A stretch of DNA of 64,000 nt from Truepera sp. (lineage in GTDB: Bacteria > Deinococcota > Deinococci > Deinococcales > Trueperaceae), in the NCBI GenBank assembly GCA_032027045.1, contig JAVSMU010000001.1, positions 996,646 to 1,060,645 on the forward strand, read 5' to 3'. The position numbers and the translations under genes are program-made. The notes beneath the pieces were generated by a model that did not search any database, had not been told where the DNA came from, and worked only from the letters and a program-made list of their open reading frames with translations. Of the stretch, positions 47,405 through 50,038 are shown piece by piece; the first letter of the stretch is position 1, and each line of letters begins with the position of its first letter.

Positions 47405-47505
47405 CCTCACGTCAGGCTGATCCTCACGTCAGGCGGATTCTCAAGTCGGGCTGAACCTCACGCCAGGCTGAGTCTCACGTCAGGGTGAATCTCACGCCCG
47501 GCTAA
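47405..47505. repeat. 17-bp imperfect tandem repeat, about six copies
   Basis: Diverged copies of a CCTCACGTCAGGCTGAT-like unit start near 47405, 47422, 47440, 47456, 47473 and 47490. They fill the gap between rlpA and the converging trpA and run into the trpA stop. Confidence 0.9.
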
Positions 47506-48284
47506 TCACGTCGGCACCCCGCCGCCAGCTCCGCGGCCAGTGCTCCCAGGTCACCGCCGTCCGACAACGTCCGGACCAGCGCCGAACCCACGATCACGCC
47601 GTCCGCCACCCCGGCGACGCGCCGCGCGCTCTCCGCGTTCGCGACGCCGAAGCCGACGGCCACGGGCAGGTCGGTGACGGCCTTCGTGGCCGCGACCAGG
47701 TTCGCCACTTCGGTGGGCACGCTCTCCCTGGCGCCCGTGACGCCGGTGACCGAGACCGCGTACACGAAGCCGCGGCAGGCGGCGGTGACCAGGCGCAGCC
47801 TGGCGGTGGTGGAGGTGGGCGCTACCAAGAAGACGGTGTCCAGGTCGGCTTCGCGGGCGGCCGCGATGAGTTCCTCCCCCTCGTCGGGCGGCAGGTCGGG
47901 CAAGATGAGTCCGTCGGCGCCCGCGGCCTTTGCCGCGCGCACGAACCCGGCCTCGCCGCCCGGGAAGCAGTAGACAGGGTTGTAGTAGGTCATCACCAGG
48001 AGGGGCTTGTCGGTCGTGGCCCTGAGCGTCTTCACGAGCGCGAGGGTGCGCGCGCCGCTTGCGCCGCCCGCCAGCGCGGCCTCGCTGGCGCGTTGGATGA
48101 CCGGCCCGTCGCCCAGCGGGTCGGAGAACGGTAGCCCGACCTCCAGGACGTCGGCGTGGCGCAACACGTCCGTGGCGGCCCGCAGGAACCGTGCGTCGTC
48201 GGGGTACGACGCGGTCAGGAAGGCGATGAACGCCGCGCGGCCTTCCGATTCCGCGCGGGCGAAGGCAGCGGCCAGTCGGCTCAC
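47502..48284 (-). CDS. trpA: Tryptophan synthase alpha chain
   Basis: TrpA cleaves indole-glycerol phosphate and channels indole to TrpB. The 260-residue TIM barrel has [46 protein letters not shown] and [11 protein letters not shown], including the catalytic Glu and Asp. The GTG start overlaps the trpB stop by 4 bases. Confidence 0.96.
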
Positions 48285-49543
48285 GAGTGACCCGCCCCCT
48301 CGCGCAACCTCTGCACTTCCGCGACGTCCTTGTCGCCGCGGCCCGAGAGGCTCACGACGATCACTTGCTCGGGGCGCATGGTGGGCGCTAACCGCAAGAC
48401 GTGAGCCACCGCGTGAGCGCTCTCGAGCGCAGGCACTATGCCCTCCGTGTGGGCGAGCACCTCGAAGGCGGCGAGGGCCTCGTCATCGGTGACGGCCACG
48501 TACTCGGCGAGGCCGTGCTGGTGGTAGTAGCTGTGCTCGGGCCCCACGCCCGGGTAATCGAGGCCCGCCGAAACGCTATGCGGCGGCGACACCTGCCCGT
48601 CCGCGTCCGAGAGCAGGTACATGAGCGAGCCGTGCAGGACGCCCGTCTTGCCACCCGAGACCGACGCGGCGTGAAGCCCGCTGCCGAGACCGTGGCCGCC
48701 GGCTTCTACCCCCACGAGGCGCGGCCGCACGTTCGCGGCCAAGTAGGCGAACGGCGCGAAGATGCCCACGGCGTTGCTGCCGCCACCCACGCACGCCACT
48801 ATCGCGTCCGGTATGGCGCGGCCCTCGGCTTGCTCCAGCTGCCGGGCGACTTCGCGCCCTATCACGGCCTGGAAGTCGCGCACCAGCATGGGGTAGGGGT
48901 GCGGTCCAACCACCGACCCCAGGATGTAGAACGTGTCCCTGACGTTGGTGACCCAGTCACGGATGGCTTCGTTGGTGGCGTCCTTGAGCGTCTTGGTGCC
49001 GCTGGAGACGGGGATCACCTCGGCGCCCAGCAGTTCCATGCGGTAGACGTTCAGCGCCTGGCGCCGGACGTCCTCCTCGCCCATGTAGACGCGGCACTCG
49101 AGGCCGTAGAGCGCGGCGGCCGTCGCGGTCGCAACGCCGTGCTGACCCGCGCCCGTCTCGGCTATCACGCGCTGCTTGCCCATGCGCTTGGCCAGCAGCG
49201 CCTGGCCCAGGGTGTTGTTGATCTTGTGCGCCCCCGTGTGGTTCAGGTCCTCGCGCTTGAGGTAGATGCGCGCCCCGCCCAGCGCCGCGGTGAGGTTGCG
49301 CGCCAGGTAGAGGAGGCTCGGCCGGCCGGCGTAGTCGCGGAGCACGGCGCCGTACTCGCCGAGGAACTCGGGGTCCTCGCGCGCCGCGAGGTAAGCGGTC
49401 TGCAACTCGTCGAGGGCGGGGATGAGGGTCTCCGGGACGTAGCGGCCACCGAACATGCCGAAGCGGCCACGGGCGTCCGGCAGCGGGAAGGGTTCCTTGA
49501 CGCCGGCTTCCGCGGGCGACGGGTTCGGCTGGGTTATGTGCAT
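48281..49543 (-). CDS. trpB: Tryptophan synthase beta chain
   Basis: TrpB condenses indole and serine using PLP. The 420-residue protein has [15 protein letters not shown], the PLP lysine in [26 protein letters not shown] and [20 protein letters not shown] precedes the ATG at 49543. The upstream 380 bases carry two repeat arrays and, before them, a leader peptide with tandem Trp codons. No other trp gene is in the window. Confidence 0.97.
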
Positions 49544-49685
49544 GTGTCCTCCGGTTCGTGCACCCCGGTCGTCATGGACGCCGGCGGCCGGTCGGTTACG
49601 GGCGGCCACGGACGAGGGCGCGCTCGGTGAAAGTGAGGGAGGTGTCGGTCGGGTGGGTGCACCGGCACGGGGCCGGCGGTTCACC

Positions 49686-49790
49686 CGGGTACGGCTGGAT
49701 CAGGCTTCGGGTACGGCAGGAGCAGACTCCGGGTACGCCTGGAGCGGGCTCCGGGTGCGGCGGGAGCAAGCTCCGGGTACGGCTGATCGA
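49686..49790. repeat. 22-bp tandem repeat, about 4.6 copies
   Basis: Units beginning CGGGTACGGC or close variants start at 49686, 49708, 49730, 49752 and 49774 in the leader region between trpL and trpB. The gap 49544-49922 holds this array and the next one but no convincing gene. Confidence 0.92.
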
Positions 49791-49800
49791 GGCGCGCGGC

Positions 49801-49920
49801 GATCGCGAAGGATTCGATCGGGAACTGCTGGGTCGGGAACCGTTCGAGCGGGAAGCTTTGGATCGGCAACTATCCGATCGGGAGCAGCGCAACCGGGTTC
49901 CGCGCGATCGGGTCGGGCTC
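49801..49920. repeat. 15-bp imperfect tandem repeat, eight copies
   Basis: Eight 15-base units, best preserved as GATCGGGAACTGCTG, follow directly on the 22-bp array and stop 3 bases before the trpL stop codon. Confidence 0.9.
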
Positions 49921-49922
49921 GG

Positions 49923-50003
49923 TCAGCCTGGGCCGTGCCGCCACCACCGTTGGTGGCGTCGCTTGAACGCGCGTGGAGTGCGAACGCGGGGTCTCGGGCG
50001 CAT
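49923..50003 (-). CDS. trpL: trp operon leader peptide (26 residues, Trp-Trp)
   Basis: ATG 50003, 6 bases after TAGACT, opens a 26-codon Arg-rich ORF ending RRHQRWWRHGPG. Codons 20 and 21 are TGG TGG and form the 3' arm of a perfect 8-bp hairpin (49939-49958). It lies upstream of trpBA in the same direction. Position, tandem Trp codons and hairpin are the hallmarks of a tryptophan attenuator peptide. I could not find a classical U-tract terminator downstream. Confidence 0.72.
   Translation of the reverse strand: MRPRPRVRTPRAFKRRHQRWWRHGPG
49939..49958 (-). promoter_or_regulatory. Hairpin containing the tandem Trp codons
   Basis: In the RNA CGCCACCA (49958-49951) pairs perfectly with TGGTGGCG (49946-49939) around a 4-base loop. 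The Trp codons occupy 49941-49946, so a stalled ribosome would prevent this hairpin. Confidence 0.75.
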
Positions 50004-50009
50004 CGTCGA

Positions 50010-50038
50010 AGTCTACGCGAGCGGGCCGTGGGTGACAA
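50010..50038 (-). promoter_or_regulatory. trp operon promoter
   Basis: TTGTCA (50033-50038), a 17-base spacer and TAGACT (50010-50015) lead into the trpL ATG after 6 bases. Confidence 0.75.

Follow-up and report, generated by a model that had tools for sequence, protein, structure and literature searches.

The trpBA genes of this Truepera sp. genome are preceded by a short leaderless open reading frame (ORF) that, judging from selection at the peptide level, is almost certainly translated as a conserved leader peptide and very likely regulates trpBA in cis. The peptide itself, beyond its tryptophan codons, is very probably under selection, and the recurrence of peptide, promoter, and place before trpB is far beyond chance. 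With moderate confidence, we favor a ribosome-dependent attenuator of trpBA that would act through arrest at a conserved Trp codon, with Rho as the leading candidate for the effector.

The leader locus

The window, the whole 64,000-nt stretch of DNA that we analyzed, carries the following features.

50033 to 50038, minus strand: -35 hexamer TTGTCA (3 to 5 matches to TTGACA in relatives)
50010 to 50015, minus strand: -10 hexamer TAGACT, 17-nt spacer to the -35 hexamer and 6 nt to the ATG
49923 to 50003, minus strand: leaderless leader ORF MRPRPRVRTPRAFKRRHQRWWRHGPG and stop, 26 codons plus TGA (ATG at 50003 to 50001, TGA at 49925 to 49923), conserved at the peptide level
49944 to 49982, minus strand: peptide core R8 to W20, RTPRAFKRRHQRW, from an alignment of 70 leaders
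49941 to 49946, minus strand: TGG TGG, codons 20 and 21; in the family, codon 20 does not vary but codon 21 does
49939 to 49958, minus strand: perfect 8-bp hairpin CGCCACCA-ACGG-TGGTGGCG, with a 3' arm that opens with TGG TGG
49544 to 49922, minus strand: 379-nt spacer, 43% C and 28% G, no run of four or more T, no terminator; candidate Rho-loading region
49812 to 49883, minus strand: tandem array in the spacer, ∼30 nt repeated 2.4 times, genome specific
49685 to 49785, minus strand: tandem array in the spacer, 22 nt repeated 4.6 times, genome specific
49548 to 49552, minus strand: Shine-Dalgarno sequence GGAGG of trpB
48281 to 49543, minus strand: trpB, tryptophan synthase beta (TIGR00263, 599.9 bits), ATG at 49543
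47502 to 48284, minus strand: trpA, tryptophan synthase alpha (TIGR00262, 234.1 bits), after trpB

The stop codon of a GluQRS gene directly precedes the leader promoter on the minus strand. Between 49500 and 50100, this promoter is the single sigma-70-like site (0.0 expected in shuffles), and transcription is predicted to start at or near the leader ATG. The same interval contained no terminator-like site, in agreement with the original prediction that no classical terminator would be obvious. The promoter, 26-codon ORF, TGG TGG pair, and hairpin that it described on the minus strand are all in place, and its central claim of a leaderless trpBA leader peptide was borne out by the sequence and by the presence of the same peptide and promoter before trpB across the order.

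Distribution across the order

The family survey began with the trpB loci of 39 genomes, whose upstream DNA was inspected with no leader presupposed. The core R-T-P-R-[SAT]-[FY]-K-x-[HRK]-H-Q-x-W, or in a stricter form R-T-P-R-[SA]-[FY]-K-x-[HR]-H-Q-R-W, preceded trpB in 30 of 32 examined family genomes (16 of 17 genera). Deviant cores were found in G030 (RTS for RTP and HG for HQ), G029 (HG), and G002 (RTPK). Beyond the family, searches with degenerate codons in 111 genomes of the phylum, together with trpB loci of other families, recovered the leader in two further families of the order, and 70 leaders were tabulated overall. One of these families has Meiothermus-like leaders, MR[PI]RTPRSYKWHHQRWWRG and stop, and Thermus-like leaders, MRVRTPFAFKWRHGRYRP and stop and similar (both labels are inferred genus assignments). 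The other has the leaders MRIRTPRSYKIRHQRFW and MRARPRVRTPRSYKWAFHHG, each followed by a stop. Wherever the neighborhood was complete, the next gene after the leader was trpB in all tabulated cases but one.

In genome G024 (locus L149), a gene for an EamA-type transporter lies between leader and trpB; speculatively, the leader may also govern this transporter, possibly for tryptophan.

We found no trace of the leader in eight genomes that represent two other families of the order, and it was also missing from the trpB upstream regions of one genus and two Thermus-like genomes. Several trpB genes without the leaderless peptide appear to start directly after their own -10 element. TAGAC...GTCTA inverted repeats or CTAG-rich motifs occur upstream of leader-lacking trpB genes (L150, L176, L155, L151 to L153, and L156); these motifs are a candidate operator, and the trpB transcripts concerned are probably leaderless. 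Outside the order, the leader pattern did not occur in 38 mixed genomes or in 400 genomes of the phylum to which one Chloroflexi locus belongs (one genome is shared between the two sets); matches from the contig scan, all from other phyla, served as the control set. Searches of Pfam and NCBIfam with three leader peptides gave no match, and Rfam gave nothing meaningful in the window or five relatives.

The leaders are, by sequence, always leaderless, with starts predicted at the 5' end of the transcript or close to it and no Shine-Dalgarno sequence. TANNNT lies 4 to 10 nt ahead of the start in all 70 tabulated leaders, where it is accompanied by a TTGACA-like -35 element (3 to 5 matches, spacing of 16 to 18 nt), and a Shine-Dalgarno sequence precedes 0/70 leader starts versus 66/70 trpB starts. 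At the narrower distance of 5 to 8 nt, TANNNT occurs in 53 of 70 leaders versus 1.6% of control positions, and these counts are somewhat biased toward the leaderless result, as the start was picked with help of the -10 element where several start codons were possible.

The Thermus-like alignment also contains an invariant TAGGAT close to trpB, with a short GC hairpin between it and the trpB Shine-Dalgarno sequence. This is a probable second trpB promoter; a comparable TAGGAT is present in Thermus-like genomes without the leader.

Selection on the peptide and its Trp codons

Across the core codons, pN/pS was 0.23 in the window's family, 0.09 in the Meiothermus-like group, and 0.15 in the Thermus-like group, versus 0.85 to 1.0 over the 39 nt past the stop and more than 1 in both other frames; the window's family was collected via trpB, and the pN of fixed columns is lowered in the remainder because pattern-collected loci have some core residues set by the search. 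The third family, in which two divergent leader types are mixed, gave 0.46. Synonymous sites in the core are free to vary while the residues stay.

Comparison with relatives, the check suggested by the original prediction, confirmed that a Trp codon upstream of trpBA is kept: W occupies core position 11 in all 29 tabulated family leaders and all 20 Meiothermus-like leaders. Trp-Trp as the conserved unit did not survive this comparison. Invariance in the family is limited to the first W; the next position is W, R, or stop depending on the leader, and the real core is RTPR[SA][FY]Kx[HR]HQRW. Some leaders of the window's family have a single Trp codon. The length before and after the core varies, some leaders stop right at W, and a dozen end with the W at position 11 or with its neighbor. 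Core position 11 is Y in 11/11 Thermus-like leaders and usually F or G in the third family. More than the Trp codons must be involved, because the diverged core of the Thermus-like leaders is kept with mostly zero or one Trp codon (5 of 11 have none) and one related genus carries RTPRSYKWAFHHG. With most of their Trp gone, the Thermus-like leaders may have altered or lost Trp sensing yet kept the peptide.

The hairpin at the Trp codons, perfect over 8 bp in the window as originally described, did not emerge as a separate signal. In an alignment of 28 family sequences, its six pairs within the aligned region were 87% paired, with covariation no greater than in shuffles, and leaders without the second W no longer form the outer pairs. 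For these two reasons, the hairpin probably arises from the HQ-R-WW codons as a side effect of the encoded residues; the lack of covariation beyond shuffles led us to reject it as an independent RNA element.

A second Trp leader before trpE

The trpE gene of the same genome (G000, locus L231) lies outside the window on the minus strand of contig C1 (1829170 to 1830522). It is preceded by TATACT-N7-ATG, which opens a second leaderless Trp leader, MVSLHRWTGALGRWRWRA and stop. The trpE leaders of other family genomes, also leaderless, share [SR]WTG[AV]LGRWR, and several others keep RWR alone. In both trpE and trpB leaders, Trp is flanked by basic residues, and the sequences are otherwise unlike. 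We rejected TrpR operator control, as none of 111 genomes encodes a TrpR repressor over the PF01371 cutoff. The trpB leader is a specific candidate for the control of tryptophan in a group without a TrpR hit.

Spacer and candidate effectors

The region between leader and trpB differs among lineages. Terminator-like sites were present there in 17 of 20 Meiothermus-like genomes (3.05 expected; typically CTCGAGGTGTTGGCCTCGAGTTTTT) and 4 of 10 Thermus-like genomes (1.55 expected), versus 0 of 10 in the third family and 1 of 28 in the window's family (0.45 expected). Spacer folding compared with shuffles gave a mean z of -1.87 for the Meiothermus-like group and -0.33 for the window's family. The Meiothermus-like spacers also have a second, varying hairpin ahead of the terminator, with changes on both sides at 4 of 6 pairs; its 5' arm starts at or just past the stop in the shorter leaders. 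We identified no mutually exclusive antiterminator fold in any group, the two hairpins of the Meiothermus-like group included. A Meiothermus-like antiterminator formed by CTCGAG self-pairing was dropped on inspection, as the motif is not kept in several species, and sequestering of the trpB Shine-Dalgarno sequence by leader codons showed no conserved pattern by inspection.

In the window's family, C exceeded G in the spacers of 29/29 genomes (28/28 when the genome with a gene inside is omitted), with mean contents of 0.405 and 0.248, respectively. The C minus G value of the window's spacer was 0.15 versus a mean of 0.00 (standard deviation, 0.074) for 85 upstream regions of this genome, 4.7% of which reach this value; both results are of composition alone, and the count is from genomes related to each other. 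The genome has one Rho over the cutoff. The original guess that the downstream step might depend on Rho fits such C-rich, G-poor spacers in composition, and we regard Rho as a possible effector in the window's family, at somewhat less than an even chance. The switch downstream of the leader appears to have been swapped, with an intrinsic terminator in one lineage and a C-rich spacer alone in another.

Spacers reach 379 and 363 nt in two genomes and are ∼50 to 60 nt in many family members. The two tandem arrays that the original prediction placed in the interval are present (49685 to 49785 and 49812 to 49883) and lengthen the window's spacer to 379 nt, but they are particular to this genome: four same-genus relatives have spacers of 149 to 181 nt without arrays of this type.

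Proposed mechanism and alternatives

In the mechanism that we favor, transcription would start at or near the leader ATG, and ribosomes would initiate at the 5' end without a Shine-Dalgarno sequence. Scarcity of charged Trp-tRNA would then arrest the ribosome at codon 20, with the basic RTPRxFKxxHQR segment in the exit tunnel. Arrest at this codon when Trp runs short, with Trp-tRNA as the presumed signal, is a prediction that we consider likely. The proposal that the basic segment probably helps or tunes arrest would explain why the core is under selection beyond the Trp codons; we see the chances of a nascent-chain contribution as evenly balanced. When Trp is ample, the ribosome would finish, leave at the stop, and expose an untranslated C-rich, G-poor spacer. 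In the window's family, Rho would most likely end transcription in this exposed spacer, before trpB, and in the Meiothermus-like relatives an intrinsic terminator would probably replace the Rho step. Arrest would block premature termination, so that trpBA is made. Against Rho attenuation, some family spacers, at ∼50 to 60 nt, are short for Rho.

Those short spacers, together with the strong Shine-Dalgarno sequences of many family members, would suit a mechanism without premature termination, in which leader translation controls trpB initiation through reinitiation or spacer folding. The lack of a terminator in the family spacers agrees with this reading, as does their near-random folding energy (mean z, -0.33). 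However, spacers of 379 and 363 nt in two genomes exceed simple reinitiation, and inspection revealed no conserved fold that would sequester the Shine-Dalgarno sequence; we therefore judge such coupling rather improbable. Somewhat less improbable, if still unlikely, is a nascent-chain arrest peptide, whose core would set the arrest in the tunnel and sense a ligand (free Trp or another metabolite) in the way that TnaC senses Trp, with Trp serving as a peptide residue and not as a codon sensor. Selection that spans the whole 13-residue core, Thermus-like leaders that keep the core without Trp, and the dozen leaders that end in W, a typical place for termination arrest, are all consistent with this idea. 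Yet free Trp should repress a biosynthetic operon, which makes the sense of arrest opposite to that of tna, and position 11 is W in 49/49 leaders from the two groups with the best sampling, which is what sensing by codon would require.

The conservation at the peptide level and the small, basic nature of the peptide could also be reconciled with a microprotein that acts in trans, and the precedent, peTrpL of Sinorhizobium meliloti, is itself the product of a leaderless trp leader (PMC7298713). Strict linkage to trpB, the variable length of the core's flanks, and leaders that stop at W make this very unlikely. An operator or hairpin, with one frame open by chance, would account for the 8-bp hairpin of the window, but synonymous sites vary freely where residues do not and hairpin covariation is not above shuffles, and we consider a DNA or RNA element of this kind highly improbable.

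Extending the favored attenuator, we tentatively suggest a new class of arrest peptide on leaderless mRNA in three families. RTPRxFKxxHQRW in the tunnel would strengthen arrest, either at one Trp codon or through a ligand, and switch trpBA via Rho or an intrinsic terminator; a SWTGxLGRWR sister would serve trpE, and the Thermus-like leaders would have changed the sensed residue.

Comparison with known systems

Leader-peptide attenuation of trp genes is classical. The trpL leader of Escherichia coli has a Shine-Dalgarno sequence, relies on its Trp codons, and acts through a terminator/antiterminator pair. Like trpL, the leader described here is a short Trp-containing ORF before trp genes, on which Trp shortage would stall ribosomes. 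Unlike trpL, it is leaderless, has a conserved 13-residue core, and is followed by no terminator in the window's family. The tna operon is dedicated to Trp breakdown and induced by Trp, with Rho as the effector of TnaC. In TnaC, the residues important for arrest are distributed along the peptide (PMC10941005). Residues other than the sensor are likewise conserved across our leader peptide, and TnaC differs in controlling a breakdown pathway that Trp induces.

In the literature covered, which included few subscription journals, we found no account of the peptide family, its spread over the order, or the exchange of effectors, and the conserved trpB leader peptide family is apparently undescribed. 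Its core provides a searchable signature of a small gene missing from the family libraries searched (Pfam and NCBIfam).

Leaderless initiation of a trp leader already has a precedent in S. meliloti (PMC7298713). There, the trpL ATG is the RNA 5' end, as predicted here, and a trans action of peTrpL has been reported; that leader controls trpE(G), has a classical terminator, encodes a 14-amino-acid peptide, and belongs to another phylum (PMC7298713). According to a further report, up to 60% of the genes of Deinococcus deserti may be leaderless (PMC9031893), and leaderless polycysteine short ORFs of mycobacteria are described as amino-acid attenuators (Canestrari 2020, via PMC9031893), a role similar to the one proposed here. 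The mycobacterial ORFs differ in using cysteine codons and in the genes that they precede. To our knowledge, no peptide from them is related to the trpB leader core. In amino-acid leader peptides, importance is commonly ascribed to the regulatory codons alone; conservation of the whole short sequence in this case offers a natural experiment on whether codon-specific stalling is aided by the nascent chain and on how Rho can be gated by a leaderless ORF.
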